Shown in pieces: positions 7,892 to 15,566 of a stretch of DNA of 64,000 nucleotides. Origin of the DNA: Natrinema halophilum (GTDB taxonomy: Archaea > Halobacteriota > Halobacteria > Halobacteriales > Natrialbaceae); NCBI RefSeq assembly GCF_013402815.2, contig NZ_CP058601.1, positions 744,001 through 808,000 of the forward strand, given 5' to 3'. Position 1 is the first letter of the stretch; each line of letters opens with the position of its first letter. Made by a program: the position numbers and the translations under genes. The notes below the pieces were generated by a model, which worked only from the letters and a program-made list of their open reading frames with translations, had not been told where the DNA came from and searched no databases.

Positions 7892-8740
7892 CTATACGTA
7901 TCTTTCGAGCTCTGCGTACGCCTCGCGAGCCGCCCGGTCGGGTTCGTCGGGATAGGTATAGAGTTCCACCGTCGCGAAGCCGTCGTAACCGATATCATCG
8001 AGTGCATTGAAGATGTTCCGGAAGTCAAGGTCGCCTTCGCCGGGGATGCGATGGTAGTGTTTGCCTCTGGGGCCGCCGACGATGTCCTCGAGGTGGACGC
8101 CGGTGATGGAACCGGCGCTGGCGCGGATGCTCTCCGCGACGTCCTCCCCGTAGACCGCCGCGTGGCCGACATCGAGGTTGACGCCGAGTGAGTCTTGACC
8201 CACGTCCTCGATGAGCGCGAGTACCTCGTCGGTGTTCTCGACCAGCAGTTCGGGCTCGAACTCGATTCCTATCTCGACGTCTCCGGCCACTGCGTAATCG
8301 AGGATTTCGTCCAGCGATTTCCGGAGGGATTCGTGCGCTTCCGCGGGCAACGTGCCGGGTAGCGGGCGGCCGGTCGCCAGACAGACCGCGGGCGAGTCGA
8401 CGGTCTTGGCGAGGTCGATCGCCCGTTTCGTGTAATCCACGCGCCACTCGCGGGCTGCATCGTCTGCGCGTATCACGCTCGGTTCGAAGAACGCCGACGG
8501 CGGCGCGTCGGTGTAATACCCCATCGCCGTGTTCGCGTTGACGTTCGAAACCGCGATATCGGAGCCGTCGAGAGCCTCGAGCAACTCGTCTCGTTCGTCG
8601 TCGCCGAAGTCCGGGAAGTAGGCGTGGGGGTCGTCACCGAGCAGTTCCACGCCGGCGTAGCCGTGGTCCGCGATCCGGCGGACTGCCTCGGGGAGATCGT
8701 ATTTGGTGTACGCGTTCGTCGAGAAAGCGAGTTCGACCAT
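7892..8740 (-). CDS. Sugar-phosphate isomerase/epimerase-type TIM barrel, ebo-like cluster (paralogue 1)
   Basis: 282 residues from the ATG at 8740. It is a xylose-isomerase/AP-endonuclease-2-type TIM barrel with the expected metal ligands at Glu162 (FEPE), Asp190 and His193 (LDVGH), His216 (VHLED) and Glu259 (VELY). It is clearly paralogous to the protein at 10479-11309: both open with FSTNA, an LPEAV/LEDAI helix and a YxGVELL strand, and both end FATVELY/FVTVELY. It lies on the same strand as the UbiA-TIM-barrel-TatD set but is separated from it by about 750 bp. A role with that cluster is inferred from the paralogy and the proximity. Confidence 0.85.
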   Translation of the reverse strand: MVELAFSTNAYTKYDLPEAVRRIADHGYAGVELLGDDPHAYFPDFGDDERDELLEALDGSDIAVSNVNANTAMGYYTDAPPSAFFEPSVIRADDAAREWRVDYTKRAIDLAKTVDSPAVCLATGRPLPGTLPAEAHESLRKSLDEILDYAVAGDVEIGIEFEPELLVENTDEVLALIEDVGQDSLGVNLDVGHAAVYGEDVAESIRASAGSITGVHLEDIVGGPRGKHYHRIPGEGDLDFRNIFNALDDIGYDGFATVELYTYPDEPDRAAREAYAELERYV

Positions 8741-8770
8741 CGATCCTGGTGTCGTACATCGACGAGTCAC

Positions 8771-9493
8771 TAATTCGTTGGCCCGACGAACGCGAAGACT
8801 GGAAGACTAGGAGAACCCGCTCGTAATCGGTCAGGGGATGAGATCGGCGGACGTCGTGACCGGGACCGATCCGTATTCGGTGCGTTCGCCGTGGCGCGAT
8901 GAGTTGTATGCGATCCGGCTCAAAGTTGTGAGACGACTCCAGAACGGCAGCGCAGAGCCGATGGCTCCGGGGCTAAACGAATAAATCGACGTATATCGTA
9001 TACTGAATTACTGATCCAATCCACCTATGGCGAACTACGGCCGCTGGCTCGTCACCCGTTTCTGATGGCTGCCATAGTCACGGAGACGCTGGTCGTTCTG
9101 GGCAATCAGAGTACCCAAGCGATTGCTGTTGGAGCCGGATATCTACCGCTGGAACTGGGTACCGACGCCGCCGAAGTAGTGATCGGTGACTACGCTGGTA
9201 ACGTTCTCCTCGGTGTTGCCACATGGGTCTCGCAGGCTGGTCGGCGTGAGCCGGCGGACTGTTGCCCGCAGCATGCTTCACCGCAGTTGGCGGATGGGTT
9301 CTTCTCGATGGCAGACAGCATCTCCGGTACGGCGTCGAGCGAAGTGTTGTGGTTCGGGGCACCACTGGTGGAACCGGACCGCGTCGAGCTATTCCCCGTT
9401 TGCTCGTCGGTCGTCTCCTCGAACCGTTCCGCCTCGATCACGACGATTACTAGCGATGCCGCGGAGAGTACGCACGACAGATCCGCAAGACAA
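8771..9493. other. Intergenic region, no gene recognised
   Basis: About 720 bp between the two minus-strand parts of the ebo-like cluster. An open frame on the plus strand from 9065 with a mildly hydrophobic start runs into the antisense of the UbiA gene. I see no motif, RBS or codon bias that supports it. No RNA gene or transposon end was recognised. It may be a decayed gene. Confidence 0.5.
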
Positions 9494-10477
9494 TCACGTC
9501 ACATCGATTACTCGCGAGGAGACTACTGCCGGAACGAGGAAAGCCCCCGTAGCAACCCCCCAGCCAACCCCGGCCGCGGCGGCGAAGCCCGCATCGAGCA
9601 ACACGAGCCCGAGGACGCACGCGCCGACCGCCGGTCCGACGGTACTCGGGACGGGATCGGCGAACGCGGCTCGCAGGGGCCGCCCGACCCACCAGCAAAA
9701 CGCGGCAGCGAACGCGAGCGCGACGCCGCTCTCGAGGACGGACGGGCCCACGTTCACGAGATGCCAGCCGAGCGTGAGCACCGCCGCTGTCGCACCCGCA
9801 GCGGCGACTGCGACGGCACCCCGATTCTCTCCCTCCGTCTCTCGAGCGGCCATGAACGTGACGGCGGCGATGTAGCCGGTGACGGCTGCGGGAACGGCGA
9901 GCAGTCGGATCGGCGACTCGAACACCGATCTCCCGACAGCAGTTGTACCGAGAACCACGTTTAGTCCCCGTGTCGTCCCCATCGCGAGGAATCCAGCTGT
10001 CGTTCCCTTCAAGAGACCGTCGTAGGTGACGACTGCGACGGCGATGAGTCCGGCGGCGACTGCAGCCGGTCGGCCGGCGACGCCGAACGCGATCCCGACG
10101 GCGAGCGCCAACAGCGCGAACCCGAGTCCGAATGCGGTGTGGCGCGACACGCGGCCGGACGGGATCGGCCGGTCGGGACGGTGGCGAACGTCTACTGGGG
10201 CGTCGAAGGCGTCGTTGAGTGTCGTGCCGCCGGCGTACAATATGACCGAGCCGATCGCGAGTCCGCCGACCGTGACCGACGTCGGGTCGTGGCCAGTGAC
10301 GGCCACCAGGGCAGCCCCGAGAATCACGTCCGGCGGCGCCGTAAAGAGGTTCGGGATTCGGACCAGTTCGGCGATCGCCTCGAGCGTCGCCCGGGGACCG
10401 CGTTTGGGAGCGGCTCCACCCTCACCGTCGACCGCGTCCGTGTTTCCGTTGCGATCCGACGAGACGCCGCCGGTCAC
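9494..10477 (-). CDS. UbiA-family prenyltransferase, EboC-like
   Basis: 327 residues from a GTG at 10477, one base after the stop of the TIM-barrel gene. After an acidic N-terminal tail come about eight to nine hydrophobic helices. The first aspartate motif is clear (LNDAFDAPVD at about 87-96, then RHRPDRPIPSG). The second motif region is degenerate: YDGLLKGTTAG, then a cytoplasmic TTRGLNVVLG, with no second DxxxD. UbiA enzymes transfer prenyl chains to aromatic or phosphate acceptors within the membrane. EboC of ebo clusters is a divergent member thought to act in precursor traffic. It is tightly packed with the TIM-barrel and TatD genes. Confidence 0.88.
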   Translation of the reverse strand: MTGGVSSDRNGNTDAVDGEGGAAPKRGPRATLEAIAELVRIPNLFTAPPDVILGAALVAVTGHDPTSVTVGGLAIGSVILYAGGTTLNDAFDAPVDVRHRPDRPIPSGRVSRHTAFGLGFALLALAVGIAFGVAGRPAAVAAGLIAVAVVTYDGLLKGTTAGFLAMGTTRGLNVVLGTTAVGRSVFESPIRLLAVPAAVTGYIAAVTFMAARETEGENRGAVAVAAAGATAAVLTLGWHLVNVGPSVLESGVALAFAAAFCWWVGRPLRAAFADPVPSTVGPAVGACVLGLVLLDAGFAAAAGVGWGVATGAFLVPAVVSSRVIDVT

Positions 10478-10478
10478 C

Positions 10479-11309
10479 CTACGCCCACCCGCGTTCCTCG
10501 AGGTAGTACATCGCCTCGCGCGCGGTCTCGATCGGCGTCTCCTCGTAGGGGTAGAGTTCGACGGTGACGAAGCCCTCGTAGCCCCGGTTCTCGAGTTCAG
10601 TAAGGAAAGCATCGATCTCCATCGCGCCGTCGCCGAGCTGGGTATGTTCGTGACTCCTGTCGGCCGGAATGTCCTCGAGGTGGTAGTGACGAGTGGACTC
10701 CCAGAGCGGGTCGATCAGATCGATCGGGTTCTCGCCGACGCAGTAGAAGTGGCCGGCATCGAAGTTGCACTTGACTCGATCGGAGTCGACGCGCTCGATA
10801 AGTTCCAGAAACTCGTCTGCGGTCTCGATCAACAGATCGGGTTCGGGTTCGACGAGGAGGTCGACGCCGACGCGTTCGGCCTTCGGGATGACCGACTCGA
10901 GGCCGTCGACGAAAGTATCCATCGCCCACTCGCGCGATCTGTCGTCGGGGATCGGTCCGCCGGGTTCGATCGAAATGTAAGGGAGACCGAGGTCGGCCGC
11001 GGTATCGAGCGCCGCGAGGGTGTACTCGATTCGCTCCCGTCGATACGCCTGGTCGGGTTCGATGTACGACGGGTGATGGAAGTCCTCGATCGCGGTCAGC
11101 ATGAACGCGTTGCCGTTGCTGACGGTGATTCCGTTCCAGTCGAGGGCTTTCTCGACACGTTCGCGCTCCTCGTCCGTCGCGGTGGGCGGATAGAGGTGGG
11201 GCTCGTCGAACAGCAACTCGACACCGTCGTACCCCGCGTCGGCGATGGCTTCGATGGCGTCCTCGAGATGATACTCGCGAAAGGCGTTGGTGGAGAAACC
11301 GAACTGCAT
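10479..11309 (-). CDS. Sugar-phosphate isomerase/epimerase-type TIM barrel, EboE-like (paralogue 2)
   Basis: 276 residues. The barrel metal site can be traced: Glu154 (VEPEPD), Asp184 and His187 (FDAGH), His210 (YHLED) and Glu251 (VELY). It sits one base after the TatD gene stop and one base before the UbiA gene start, so the three form one transcription unit. In bacterial ebo clusters the TIM-barrel member (EboE) accompanies TatD, UbiA, a sugar-phosphate cyclase and a phosphatase-superfamily enzyme, and that set is present here. The substrate is unknown, most likely a sugar or cyclitol derivative. Confidence 0.88.
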   Translation of the reverse strand: MQFGFSTNAFREYHLEDAIEAIADAGYDGVELLFDEPHLYPPTATDEERERVEKALDWNGITVSNGNAFMLTAIEDFHHPSYIEPDQAYRRERIEYTLAALDTAADLGLPYISIEPGGPIPDDRSREWAMDTFVDGLESVIPKAERVGVDLLVEPEPDLLIETADEFLELIERVDSDRVKCNFDAGHFYCVGENPIDLIDPLWESTRHYHLEDIPADRSHEHTQLGDGAMEIDAFLTELENRGYEGFVTVELYPYEETPIETAREAMYYLEERGWA

Positions 11310-11310
11310 C

Positions 11311-12111
11311 TCAGGCCTCGTAGTCGAAATTCGGGGATTGGTCGAAGAACTCGTAAGGATTCTCGAAGATCACTTTGCGGACCTCCTCGCGGTCCCAGCC
11401 GCGGTCGATCATCCGGTCGCGGGCTTTCGGTACCGCAAGCGGATCCGACGGGTCCCAGTCGGCGGCGCTGTTGAAGATCATGTTGTCGGTGCCGTACTCC
11501 TCGAGGAGACCGATCGCCGAGTCGGCCTCGATCTTGCCGGGATAGAGCGTAAAGCCAATCCAGCAATCCGTTCGCGTCGAGATGTCGATCGTATTCTCGG
11601 TGTTGTGATCGATGATGATTCGCTCCTGGGTGACGCCCATCTCCTCGATGATGTCGACGATGTGCTCGGTTCCCGATGGCTTGTCAGTGTGAGGTGTGTG
11701 GACGATTACGGGGAGTTCGCGGTCCTCCGCGATTTCTAACTGGCGGCGAAACGCCCACTCTTCGTCGTCGGTGACCTGGTCGAAGCCGATCTCGCCGACG
11801 CCGACGACGGGGTCGCGGTCGAGGTACTCCGGAATCCGGTCGACGACCTTCTCGGCCATGTCGCGGTAGTTGGCTTCCTTCGGCTCGAGACCGATCGTAA
11901 CGTAATGATCCACGTTGGCGGCTCGCTCGGCGCGGTCGGTTTCGTGCTCGATGATCTGCTCGAAGTAGTCGAAGAATGCACCCGCGTGGTGTTTGTCCTG
12001 ACCGCTCCAGAACGCGGGCTCGATACAGCACTCGACTCCCGCTCGCCGCGCTCGCCGGTAGTCCTCGGCAGAGCGCGAGACCATGTGCATATGTGGATCG
12101 ATAATCCGCAT
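11311..12111 (-). CDS. TatD-family metal-dependent hydrolase, EboB-like
   Basis: 266 residues from the ATG at 12111. It is an amidohydrolase-type barrel with HxH at His7/His9 (DPHMHM), Glu107 (GVGEIGFD), His138 (IVHTPH), His169 (IIDHN) and Asp218 (SAADWD). All metal ligands are present, so it should be active. The sequence is nearer to the EboB-type TatD relatives than to the DNase TatD, judging by the TDK insertion after the first histidines of strand 5 and the unusual IGFTLYPGK segment. First gene of the minus-strand operon, divergent from the cyclase gene at 12413. Confidence 0.87.
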   Translation of the reverse strand: MRIIDPHMHMVSRSAEDYRRARRAGVECCIEPAFWSGQDKHHAGAFFDYFEQIIEHETDRAERAANVDHYVTIGLEPKEANYRDMAEKVVDRIPEYLDRDPVVGVGEIGFDQVTDDEEWAFRRQLEIAEDRELPVIVHTPHTDKPSGTEHIVDIIEEMGVTQERIIIDHNTENTIDISTRTDCWIGFTLYPGKIEADSAIGLLEEYGTDNMIFNSAADWDPSDPLAVPKARDRMIDRGWDREEVRKVIFENPYEFFDQSPNFDYEA

Positions 12112-12412
12112 ACCCGCCGTTCGACGAGTGATCGGTTTGGTGCACCGATCGTTCGAACAGCAAAGCCGACGTTGATGACGGAAAAACGATCGGGCTCGAC
12201 CGCGGAATACGTTGTTGTGACCGGTCAAACTGGTCTTACTTCTACTACGCGAGTCATAACGAAAGTCGTCGGGTCCCGAGTTTCGCGGGAATGCCAGCTA
12301 TCGAACGAGCGACGGGAGCGACACGTCGTCGTACTATCGCTTCGGCCCGCGCTGAGCGAGAACCCACGTTACGACGACAGCGCGACCAGCCGTCGAGACT
12401 CACCGATCCCAG
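12112..12412. promoter_or_regulatory. Divergent control region of the ebo-like cluster
   Basis: About 300 bp separate the divergent TatD (minus) and inositol-phosphate-synthase-type (plus) genes, so promoters for both halves of the cluster must lie here. No strong TATA box stands out. A short imperfect palindrome reading ACCGGTCAAACTGGT is seen near 12221-12235 and could be an operator. Confidence 0.35.
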
Positions 12413-13627
12413 ATGAACCGGAGCGACCACCGCTTGGCCGGCGACAGAACCGGCGTCTGGCTCGTCGGTGCGCGCGGAAACGTGGCAACGATGTCGATCG
12501 TCGGCGCTCGCGCGATCGCCGCGGGGAAGACCGACACGACCGGAATGGTCACCAAACGTGAACCGGTCTCAAGTCTCGACCTTCCGCCGATCGAGGGGCT
12601 CGTTTTCGGCGGCCACGATATCGATCCGGAGTCGCTCGTCACCCAGGCCGAACTCCAGTGCGACCGAAACGACGTGCCCGACGAAACGACGCTCGCAGCC
12701 GTCCGAGACGACCTCGCTGCGATCGACGACCGGATCGAGGTCGGAACGGCGGTCAACTGCGGTGCCGCGGTTACCGAGGAAAGCGAACGGATCGACGACT
12801 CACTCGCGATCCGAGACGTCATCGAGCAGATACGGGACGATTACGAAACATTCCGAAACCACCACGGTATCGACCGGCTCGTCGTGGTCAACGTCGCCTC
12901 GACGGAGCCCGAACCCACTGAGCCGGAGCGCTACGACGACCGCGACGGACTCGAGCGCGCAATCGACGAGAACGACCGCGAGTTGCCAGCGAGCGTTCTC
13001 TACGCCTACGCCGCGATCGATTCCGGGCATCCGTTCGTCAACTTCACGCCGAGTACGGCCAATGCGGTGGGGGGAATCCGCGACCTCGCCGCTACGGAAT
13101 CCGTCCCGCACATGGGACGTGATGCAAAGACCGGGGAGACGCTCGTCAAGTCCGCGCTCGCGCCGATGTTCGCCGGCCGCAACCTGCAGGTGTTGAGCTG
13201 GGAGGGGCACAACATTCTGGGCAACAAAGACGGCTTGGTCCTCGAGGACGACGCGAACGCGGCCGGCAAACTCGCGAGCAAAGGCGACGTGCTCGATTCG
13301 ATCCTGCCCGAAATCGGCCACAATCGGGTTCGAATCGATTACACGCCGTCGCTGGCCGACTGGAAGACCGCCTGGGACTACATCCACTTCGAAGGCTTCC
13401 TCGAGACCGAGATGACGATGCAGTTCACCTGGGAAGGATCAGACTCCGCGCTGGCCGCGCCGCTCGTCCTCGATCTGGTGCGCCTGATCGCCCATGCCGA
13501 CCGATACGGCGACGGTGGACTTCAGCCCCAACTCGCGTCGTTCTTCAAAGCCCCGATCGGAGTCGACGACCACGATTTTTCCCGCCAACTGGATCTGTTG
13601 TACGACTACGCCCGACAGGATCGCTGA
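12413..13627 (+). CDS. Inositol-3-phosphate synthase-family protein
   Basis: 404 residues. It has the NAD-binding loop GARGNVATM at 19-27, then NVASTEP, FVNFTPSTAN, GRDAKTGETLVKSALAPMF, SWEGHNILGNKDG and DYTPSLADWKTAWDYIHFEG. This order is diagnostic of myo-inositol-1-phosphate synthases, which cyclise glucose-6-phosphate by NAD-dependent oxidation, aldol closure and reduction. In archaea the product feeds inositol lipids or osmolytes. Here it opens the plus-strand half of an ebo-like cluster, where bacteria carry a dehydroquinate-synthase-like cyclase (EboD). It may therefore be a dedicated, possibly divergent cyclase rather than the housekeeping enzyme. Confidence 0.93.
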   Translation: MNRSDHRLAGDRTGVWLVGARGNVATMSIVGARAIAAGKTDTTGMVTKREPVSSLDLPPIEGLVFGGHDIDPESLVTQAELQCDRNDVPDETTLAAVRDDLAAIDDRIEVGTAVNCGAAVTEESERIDDSLAIRDVIEQIRDDYETFRNHHGIDRLVVVNVASTEPEPTEPERYDDRDGLERAIDENDRELPASVLYAYAAIDSGHPFVNFTPSTANAVGGIRDLAATESVPHMGRDAKTGETLVKSALAPMFAGRNLQVLSWEGHNILGNKDGLVLEDDANAAGKLASKGDVLDSILPEIGHNRVRIDYTPSLADWKTAWDYIHFEGFLETEMTMQFTWEGSDSALAAPLVLDLVRLIAHADRYGDGGLQPQLASFFKAPIGVDDHDFSRQLDLLYDYARQDR

Positions 13628-13797
13628 CACCCACGAACCGCTGTCCGACTCGAAAGCGACCGATCAACCCGAACGAGAACTGACCGACGCGAACGATACC
13701 CGATTGACTCGAACGCGAACGGATCGAACCGACGGTCCGACGACCCGAACCACCGCAACCGCCACGCGACTCACCCCGATACGACCTCCGAAATCCC

Positions 13798-15192
13798 ATG
13801 ACCGACCCACAGATTCCCCAGACGACGGAGACGGCTGGCCGAATAATCGTCCTCGACATCGTCGGCCTCCAGCCCCAGCATATAGACGCCGATAGAATGC
13901 CGACGCTCGAGTCGTTCTTCCCGAACGACCGCGTGACCGACCTTCGGCCACCGTTTCCGGCCGTAACCGTTCCCGCCCAGACGACGCTCGCGACGGGACA
14001 ACGGCCGGAAACCCACGGAGACGTGTCGAGCGGAGAGTACGACCGTGAACGGGAGACCGCCGAATTTTGGGAACGCGACCGCGACGGTCGCGATCGAATC
14101 TGGGAAACCGCAAGCGACGAAGCGGGGCTGACTACCGGCGTTTTGAACTTCCAACACTTGATCGGGACCAGCGCCGACGTGGCCGTCACGCCGTCGCCGA
14201 TCGAAGACGAAAACAACGACATTCTCGAGATGAACTGCTGGTCGAACCCGGATGGATTCTACGACGACCTCCGCGAGGAACTGAATCACTTTCCGCTACA
14301 CAACTACTGGGGTCCCGGTGCGAACGAAGCGGGAAGCCGATGGATTCTCGCGGCCGCTCGCGAGGCGATCGAGCGTTTCGATCCGGATATGCTCTGGATC
14401 TACGTGCCACACCTCGACTACGTCGGACAGAGCGACGGTCCGGGGAGCGACGCCTTCGAGGAGGAACTGGGGGTCGTCGACGAACTCCTCGAGGAATTCC
14501 TCACTCCCCTCACCGAGACCGACCGCTGGGACGAGACGGTTCTCGCACTCGTCAGCGAGTACGGATTTCACGACGTGGACCGGCCGGTGTTCCCGAACCG
14601 TGCGCTCCGCGAGGCCGGACTGCTCGACGTGGCTGACGACGGTGACGTAGACATCGCCGGTTCGGATGCGTTCGCGATGGTCGACCACCAGATCGCACAC
14701 GTCTACGCCGACGAGGGGTCGGTCGATGCAGCTCACAACGCACTCGAAGCGCTCGAGGGCGTCGACGACGTTCTCGGCGAATCCGGGACGGAACACCGCG
14801 GGATCGACCACCCCAATGCGGGCGAGATCGTCCTCGTCGCGGCTCCGGACGCGTGGTTCCAGTACTACTGGTGGGACGACACCGCGAACGCACCGCCGTA
14901 CGCGACCGAGATGGACATTCACGCGAAACCCGGCTTCGACCCGTGCGAACTGTTCATCGGCGACGAGGGACTCGTCTCGCTCGACGCGACGAAGGTACGC
15001 GGGTCACACGGCCGCGTCGACGGGTCGGCGTTCGGCTGTTTCGGCCTCGGAGGCCCGGCGGGGCCCGCGCTTCAGGGTGACGGTGCAGTCGACGCGACCG
15101 ACGTCACGCCGACGATCATCGACCTGCTCGGTCTCGACCTCGACTCGTCGATCCCGCTCGAGGGCTCGTCGCTCCGCAGTTCCCCGGAGTGA
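13798..15192 (+). CDS. Alkaline-phosphatase-superfamily (nucleotide pyrophosphatase/phosphodiesterase-type) protein, EboF-like
   Basis: 464 residues. Metal ligand Asp20 lies in IIVLDIVG. The nucleophile is probably Thr57 in FPAVTVPAQTTLATG, the form seen in type I phosphodiesterase/NPP enzymes. Further metal-site segments are YVPHLDYVGQ, LVSEYGFHDV and RGSHGRVDGSAFG. The C-terminal TDVTPTIIDLLGL is shared with sulfatase/AlkP relatives. There is no signal peptide, so it should act in the cytosol. It follows the cyclase gene by 170 bp on the same strand. In ebo clusters an AlkP-superfamily protein (EboF) occupies the same role. Confidence 0.88.
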   Translation: MTDPQIPQTTETAGRIIVLDIVGLQPQHIDADRMPTLESFFPNDRVTDLRPPFPAVTVPAQTTLATGQRPETHGDVSSGEYDRERETAEFWERDRDGRDRIWETASDEAGLTTGVLNFQHLIGTSADVAVTPSPIEDENNDILEMNCWSNPDGFYDDLREELNHFPLHNYWGPGANEAGSRWILAAAREAIERFDPDMLWIYVPHLDYVGQSDGPGSDAFEEELGVVDELLEEFLTPLTETDRWDETVLALVSEYGFHDVDRPVFPNRALREAGLLDVADDGDVDIAGSDAFAMVDHQIAHVYADEGSVDAAHNALEALEGVDDVLGESGTEHRGIDHPNAGEIVLVAAPDAWFQYYWWDDTANAPPYATEMDIHAKPGFDPCELFIGDEGLVSLDATKVRGSHGRVDGSAFGCFGLGGPAGPALQGDGAVDATDVTPTIIDLLGLDLDSSIPLEGSSLRSSPE

Positions 15193-15273: not shown

Positions 15274-15348
15274 GCTCCGTTGGTGTAGTCCGGCCAATCA
15301 TTTCGGCCTTTCGAGCCGATGACCTGGGTTCAAATCCCAGACGGAGCA
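15274..15348 (+). tRNA. trnE: tRNA-Glu (anticodon UUC)
   Basis: A full cloverleaf can be drawn. The acceptor stem is GCTCCGT/ACGGAGC with A as discriminator. The anticodon stem is TCGGC/GCCGA with loop CTTTCGA giving anticodon TTC. The T-arm is CTGGG-TTCAAAT-CCCAG, and the D-arm contains GTGTAGTCCGGCC. CCA is not encoded. The 3' end is the source of repeated copies just downstream, so the gene has served as an integration target. Confidence 0.95.
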
Positions 15349-15566
15349 CTCTTCTGAACGAACGAAGCGAGTGGAGAAGGGAGCGCACGCTCTGGGATTT
15401 GAATTAGAGAAACGCAAGCGATAGCGAGCGTTTCGCGTAGTTCAAATCCCAGACGGAGCACTACTGCGAGCGGAGAGCGAAGCGCGCACGGATGGGGTTT
15501 GACCGAGACCAGTCGGGTGCAGCGTAGCGAACACGTCTGTGTTGGGTTCAACCCCAGGACGGAGCA
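15328..15566 (+). repeat. Duplicated 3' ends of tRNA-Glu (att-like array)
   Basis: The last 23 bases of the tRNA locus (15328-15350) recur exactly at 15440-15462 and in diverged form at 15544-15566 (GGTTCAACCCCAGGACGGAGC). Before the second copy lies its inverted complement (TCTGGGATTTGAA at 15390-15402), and inside that pair is another inverted repeat (GAAACGC/GCGTTTC). Such arrays form when elements integrate repeatedly at a tRNA 3' end by tyrosine recombinases, each insertion restoring the gene. No integrase gene is visible in the window. Confidence 0.65.

Follow-up and report, generated by a model that had tools for sequence, protein, structure and literature searches.

Six genes of Natrinema halophilum, within the 64,000-nt stretch of contig NZ_CP058601.1 that we analyzed (the window, in whose positions coordinates are given), form a real, co-inherited metabolite cluster related to the ebo clusters of bacteria (Table 1). 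Four of them, TIM1-UbiA-TIM2-TatD, lie on the minus strand and are divergent from MIPS-NPP on the plus strand. Rather than a canonical ebo cluster, the cassette is a variant with inositol-3-phosphate synthase (MIPS) as its cyclase. We put at roughly two in three the probability that it is the haloarchaeal, MIPS-type variant of the ebo pathway and makes an isoprenoid-cyclitol membrane compound.

Co-inheritance and linkage in Halobacteria

A sample of 194 Halobacteria genomes was queried with the cassette MIPS, UbiA, and TatD. MIPS matched 24 genomes, of which 23 scored at least 517 bits and the other only 31.8 bits; UbiA matched 151, only 23 of which reached at least 162 bits (the next, 51), and TatD matched 63, with only 23 at or above 406 bits (the next, 46). 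The three strong sets are the identical 23 genomes, and the ebo-type genes occur in none of the other 171; the chance of one particular set of 23 in 194 is about 2e-30, if shared ancestry is ignored. Linkage of the whole cassette was seen in the window and, with all six genes inside ∼20 kb, in 21 of the other 22 positive genomes, hence in 22 of the 23. Of those 21, 20 have divergent arms; in locus L048 the six genes share one direction. TIM1 stands 2.5 to 4.9 kb away in L029, L034, and L035 and on the opposite side in L036. In the exceptional genome, G020, TatD, TIM2, and UbiA are together, MIPS is 240 kb away, and a divergent NPP is found on another contig. An initial annotation, made from the window's sequence, had proposed such a survey and held that genes unlinked in relatives, with no co-occurrence, would speak against a cluster; the gene set proved to be both co-inherited and linked.

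A scan for MIPS gave 15 named haloarchaeal loci, some of them probably from the same strains as survey genomes: the full set of six is present in 12, MIPS is unaccompanied in two, and the remaining locus is truncated at the edge of its contig. Genera with the cassette include Natrialba, Natrinema, Halopiger, Halococcus, Halorubrum, Halorussus, Halogeometricum, Haloferax, Salinigranum, and Halobellus, and it is also present on plasmids of Natronococcus and Halocatena. Judging from the related loci L075 and L076, the MIPS gene of Haloferax volcanii (HVO_B0213) presumably belongs to such a cassette as well. The chromosome of Halorussus aquaticus (L070 and L071) carries two MIPS genes, one in a cassette and one alone. 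In a concatenated tree, the nearest named relative is Natrinema salsiterrestre (83% identity), which places the host in Natrialbaceae.

A tRNA-Glu gene comes after NPP in the window and likewise in loci L027 to L034 of Natrialbaceae. Another genome of the host's genus, G028, retains three upstream neighbors (96%, 79%, and 85% identity), followed by ∼133 C-terminal residues of NPP and then by tRNA-Glu. The cassette has been deleted from this genome, which fits its patchy spread. A phylum-wide search of 392 genomes with NPP matched 30; seven scored at least 140 bits, all of them Halobacteria and one of them a remnant, and outside Halobacteria none exceeded 25 bits.

Cassette proteins and their Ebo counterparts

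The ebo cluster (eboA to eboF; PMC5133447 and PMC6282210), which includes the EDB cluster of Pseudomonas fluorescens, shares with the cassette an EboB-type TatD, a UbiA probably of the EboC group, an EboF-type NPP, tight packing, and the presence of a sugar-phosphate cyclase. The cassette differs in being archaeal and in lacking EboA, EboD, and EboE, having MIPS and two short TIM barrels instead.

The cyclase contains both MIPS domains (PF07994, 158 bits; PF01658, 112 bits) and is the sole PF01658 protein of the host genome (4.84 Mb, three contigs). It matches MIPS from Archaeoglobus fulgidus (1u1i) over nearly its full length at 274 bits, compared with only 46 bits for five-membered-cyclitol-phosphate synthase. 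Residues K286, K290, K318, and K379, which we take to be the catalytic lysines, are invariant in 12 sequences and are kept in 1u1i; two of the four are alanine in the aligned chains 3qvx and 3qvw. The haloarchaeal proteins fall among planctomycete and gammaproteobacterial MIPS in a tree that did not contain the A. fulgidus enzyme. EboD, in contrast, is a dehydroquinate-synthase-type enzyme (PF01761), to which MIPS is unrelated. A PF01761 search for EboD, positive in 11 of 14 control genomes, found none in the host genome and gave only two weak matches (25.5 and 21.1 bits) in the 23 cassette genomes. The initial annotation had regarded the cyclase as the counterpart of EboD and had credited the locus with the same five activities as ebo clusters; this is not literally so, because EboD is of the dehydroquinate synthase type and the cassette enzyme is a MIPS.

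The kinships proposed there for TatD and NPP were borne out, and that for UbiA appears probable. The nearest NCBIfam models to UbiA are EboC (175 bits) and SCO3242 (165 bits), with the next family at 69 bits, and all 11 UbiA sequences aligned have the NDxxDxxxD motif. TatD is 41 to 44% identical over its full length to the TatD proteins of bacterial ebo clusters (EboB type), and six positions, presumably metal ligands (H6, H8, E106, H137, H168, and D217, numbered by the first row of the alignment), are invariant in 12 sequences. NPP is 32 to 38% identical to bacterial EboF-type proteins; the motifs SEYG, DHQxxH, and HxKPGxDP are common to all 11 aligned haloarchaeal and bacterial EboF-type sequences, in which the nucleophile Thr57, Asp207, and His404 are retained and D296, H297, Q298, H301, H338, and H375 are invariant. 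The two-metal site of Xanthomonas NPP, whose ligands we take to be D54, H214, D257, and H258, is not matched in the alignment by the cassette NPP, the equivalent residues being V, Q (L in some haloarchaea), E, and Y. With its metal site remodeled in this way, NPP should not be taken for an ordinary zinc phosphodiesterase.

The TIM barrels depart further from the ebo pattern. TIM1 and TIM2 each score 20 bits against the EboE model (cut-off, 250 bits), for TIM2 below several epimerase families, and the EboE-like TIM barrel of the initial annotation was not upheld. The haloarchaeal loci scanned yielded no EboE, which we take to be a TIM barrel of about 390 amino acids. Residues E156, D184, and E251 are conserved in the short TIM barrels, and H210 is nearly invariant; in a tree, each of the two has bacterial orthologues distinct from EboE. 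TIM1 groups (92/89) with TIM barrels from gammaproteobacterial EboA-EboB-EboE-EboF clusters (L187 and L190), and orthologues of TIM2 adjoin MIPS in planctomycetes (L104 and L107). We rejected the idea that TIM1 is a mere stand-in for EboE, since the clusters of its nearest bacterial relatives also contain EboE. EboA was found in none of the 23 cassette genomes (positive control, 158 bits), in line with its reported invisibility in the window, and EboG had no match in the haloarchaeal loci scanned. With EboA, EboD, and EboE tested for and not found, filing the locus simply as an ebo cluster was rejected.

Positions and identities of UbiA, TatD, MIPS, and NPP are as first annotated, and stop and start coordinates confirm the one-base gaps claimed among UbiA, the TIM barrel, and TatD: TIM2 extends to its stop at 10479 and UbiA probably starts with a GTG at 10477, while TatD ends at 11311 and the TIM2 ATG is at 11309. 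All five genes named within the original interval are present, and a second short TIM barrel, TIM1, had gone unnamed there. The spacer between UbiA and TIM1 is less than 205 bases in most relatives; in the window it is longer, and a repeat search, the only one made there, gave no evidence of a mobile element. Within the divergent intergenic region, a short stretch at 12236-12264 (TTAC, CTACG, and CATAAC) is conserved in nine Natrialbaceae loci and may be a shared promoter or operator.

Table 1. Features of the cassette, its flank, and the deletion scar in a related genome
Feature	Positions	Strand	Remarks
TIM1, short xylose-isomerase-like TIM barrel (PF01261)	7892..8740	-	sixth cassette gene; alternative start 8770
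Spacer between UbiA and TIM1	8741..9493		∼750 bases, no recognized gene
UbiA-superfamily prenyltransferase, EboC/SCO3242 group	9494..10477	-	GTG start; NDxxDxxxD motif intact
TIM2, second short xylose-isomerase-like TIM barrel	10479..11309	-	ATG at 11309
TatD-family hydrolase, EboB type	11311..12111	-	
Divergent intergenic region	12112..12412		between the two transcription units
MIPS (inositol-3-phosphate synthase)	12413..13627	+	occupies the place of EboD
NPP, EboF-type member of the NPP/alkaline phosphatase superfamily	13798..15192	+	remodeled metal site (SEYG instead of SDHG)
tRNA-Glu	15274..15349	+	flanking landmark outside the cassette
NPP remnant (deletion scar) in G028	9533-9934 of L227 (G028:C1:1316000-1335000)		

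Cyclase types in bacterial clusters and planctomycetes

Bacterial clusters were opened from a plasmid collection, in which the TatD query matched 55 records; all 19 of the records opened have at least one more ebo-type gene beside TatD. Complete clusters are of two types. EboD and EboE, with no MIPS, are found in all eight EboD-type clusters opened (Mycetohabitans, Ketogulonicigenium, two Deinococcus, Aureibacter, Salipiger, Azospirillum, and Roseivivax). MIPS, EboE, and a short TIM barrel, with no EboD, are found in all five MIPS-type clusters (Streptomyces camelliae, Streptomyces NBC_01450, Embleya, Nonomuraea, and Gemmatirosa). The extra short TIM barrel is thus present in 5/5 MIPS-type and 0/8 EboD-type clusters. 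The MIPS-type clusters, in which the Streptomyces prenyltransferase is of the SCO3242 family, resemble the haloarchaeal cassette in having MIPS for EboD together with UbiA, TatD, NPP, and a short TIM barrel; they differ in retaining EboE, joined in some clusters by EboA or an EboG-like protein, and their short TIM barrel belongs to a different subfamily. Gloeothece has TatD and EboD only. Two Streptomyces plasmids (L158 and L159) have ebo-type TatD, EboE, and NPP, and no cyclase or UbiA within 8 kb.

The haloarchaea group as a single clade (100/100) in a tree of the partner proteins NPP, TatD, and UbiA, and Gemmatirosa, which has MIPS, is sister to Deinococcus, which has EboD (100/100), apart from the actinobacterial MIPS clade. 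The cyclase type therefore appears to have changed at least twice on this tree, whose root is unplaced and in which the Aureibacter branch is long. One single swap for all MIPS-type clusters was considered and found unsupported, since Gemmatirosa and the actinobacteria are separate on both the partner and the MIPS trees.

Several further arrangements were seen in bacteria. Another conserved cluster (L058, L059, and L063) pairs MIPS with a short TIM barrel of a group that we call sTIM; in Hymenobacter and Roseomonas it has genes annotated as YcaO-like, Gfo/Idh/MocA, and PIG-L, and in Methylobacterium it is unannotated. Proteins of the ScyD/ScyE family or PQQ-dependent sugar dehydrogenases lie near some MIPS-type clusters (L056, 7686-8888; L061, 13595-16258), and an unannotated protein in L057 (906-3881) resembles them by eye; these may be chance associations.

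The MIPS scan also gave 65 nonhaloarchaeal loci, mostly planctomycete, in which MIPS is usually alone. If MIPS serves an ebo pathway in these organisms, the partners would be expected elsewhere in the genome and EboD would be expected to be missing. The search covered 50 of the 65 genomes, and its misses are soft because many of these genomes are incomplete and metagenome-derived. EboB-type TatD was found in 44 and EboF-type NPP in 40. A true EboD was found in one, Desulfobacula, at 475 bits (controls, 552 to 651 bits); 44 gave only partial matches of 118 to 205 bits, the level to be expected from ordinary AroB, and five had none.

Local pairs and larger sets in some of these genomes point the same way: MIPS-UbiA in L132 and L137, MIPS-TIM2 in L104 and L107, and UbiA-sTIM-NPP in Blastopirellula (L222) and L221. 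Adhaeretor has TIM2-UbiA-sTIM-NPP beside TatD (L201), and Desulfobacula (G537; L116, L203, and L224) has MIPS, TatD, TIM2, UbiA, NPP, and sTIM within ∼17 kb. Most other planctomycete NPP and TatD genes have no recognized partners alongside. The complement of Adhaeretor mobilis (L201 and L105) and of Desulfobacula is thus nearly identical to that of the cassette, with MIPS, UbiA, NPP, TatD, and a pair of short TIM barrels, one of them a TIM2 orthologue; in these organisms, however, the set is scattered or partly linked, and the second TIM barrel is sTIM rather than TIM1. The excerpts of PMC5133447 consulted describe planctomycete ebo genes as unclustered, with eboD missing in two of three species, an absence left with caution about draft quality.

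Predicted pathway, alternatives, and implications

From gene content and homology we infer an order of steps, a product, and a role in export. MIPS would likely convert glucose 6-phosphate to inositol phosphate, in place of the nonhomologous EboD. The short TIM barrels, which track MIPS, may process the cyclitol by isomerization, epimerization, or dehydration, a role suggested because sTIM also accompanies MIPS in the YcaO/oxidoreductase clusters. The EboC-type UbiA would add a prenyl chain in the membrane, and the EboB-type hydrolase and EboF-type enzyme would tailor or release the product. A prenylated cyclitol is a plausible outcome; as an isoprenoid-cyclitol membrane compound it may carry a metabolite or help to export it, in line with the export defect of Nostoc ebo mutants. 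In those mutants the scytonemin monomer stays in the cytoplasm, and the ebo product has been suggested to be a carrier (both from the parts of PMC6282210 consulted); an isoprenoid-cyclitol product was proposed for ebo in the corresponding parts of PMC5133447. An EboC homologue is an active farnesyltransferase that farnesylates quinolines in vitro, as described in the consulted part of PMC9235831.

Several observations weigh against this reading. EboA, EboD, and EboE, half of the defining ebo set, are absent. The UbiA scores lie under the curated cut-offs (EboC, 250 bits; SCO3242, 260 bits), although the UbiA of an Azospirillum ebo cluster scores just 89 bits. The acceptors tested with the assayed EboC homologue were, in that part of PMC9235831, all aromatic and give no support to a cyclitol acceptor, and the cassette has no dehydrogenase to oxidize inositol. 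A Haladaptatus plasmid carries five cassette genes with no MIPS nearby, and lone MIPS genes occur in Halorussus and Halomarina. The 50-genome sample was picked by MIPS, so it tests for partners and EboD rather than for the frequency of MIPS in EboD genomes, and the EboD-like protein of Desulfobacula, on another contig, coexists with its MIPS.

Ordinary polar-lipid synthesis, with MIPS supplying a myo-inositol headgroup and the other genes accessory to membrane lipids, would suit a host with a single PF01658 protein, and the consulted part of PMC8305020 files Haloferax volcanii MIPS (HVO_B0213, 43% to AF_1794) under myo-inositol lipid headgroups. (The same row calls AF_1794 an adenylate kinase while citing papers on inositol-1-phosphate synthase, which looks like a copying slip.) We nevertheless consider it improbable: MIPS is confined to the 23 genomes, always with ebo-type UbiA and TatD, its neighbors are Ebo homologues, and the same partners go with a dehydroquinate-synthase-type cyclase in other phyla. 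The strictness of this pairing argues for a role other than lipid headgroups. More improbable still is an island for carbohydrate or cyclitol utilization, with TIM isomerases, a lactonase-like TatD, and UbiA carried along. Some copies do adjoin Gfo/Idh/MocA oxidoreductases, mannonate dehydratase, IclR regulators, or BMP-type ABC transporters, and fumarylacetoacetate hydrolase flanks most Natrialbaceae copies, but these catabolic neighbors vary by genus while the six genes persist. MIPS, moreover, is anabolic and consumes glucose 6-phosphate, and the ebo-type UbiA is present in 23 of 23.

A question of a different kind is whether the two cyclases supply equivalent rings. EboD-type enzymes release phosphate on cyclization, whereas MIPS retains it, and together with the TIM barrel that accompanies MIPS but not EboD this could mean that a shared prenylation and export machinery acts on chemically different products. 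We think this rather unlikely, given that the swap leaves the EboB, EboC, and EboF partners in place and that the sisters Gemmatirosa and Deinococcus differ in cyclase. We hold tentatively, as a possibility that falls short of an even chance, the more general proposal that the ebo product combines an inositol-type cyclitol with an isoprenoid; MIPS, with a short TIM barrel, and EboD would be interchangeable suppliers of the ring, repeatedly exchanged, in Archaea too, and haloarchaeal and possibly planctomycete MIPS would serve mainly this product rather than phospholipid headgroups.

In the open literature (subscription journals were mostly uncovered), we found no paper linking ebo with inositol or reporting an archaeal or MIPS-type ebo pathway; the portions of PMC5133447 and PMC6282210 consulted bring in Archaea only in connection with UbiA relatives and with their lipids. 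The bacterial arrangement is already visible in databases, because in Streptomyces NCBI annotates the prenyltransferase next to EboA and MIPS as SCO3242 family. The ebo genes occur widely; in Nostoc they act in the export of metabolites, and in Pseudomonas they act in resistance to nematodes (PMC6282210, in the sections consulted). The cassette predicts that haloarchaeal MIPS serves an ebo-like pathway, which would call into question its placement with lipid headgroups. A recurrent exchange of EboD and MIPS would tie the ebo product to glucose 6-phosphate and an inositol-like ring, and it offers a possible cause for the puzzle of planctomycetes without eboD, as set out in the consulted excerpts of PMC5133447. 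It would also bring the pathway within reach of experiment in Haloferax, for which clean deletions and lipidomics are standard.

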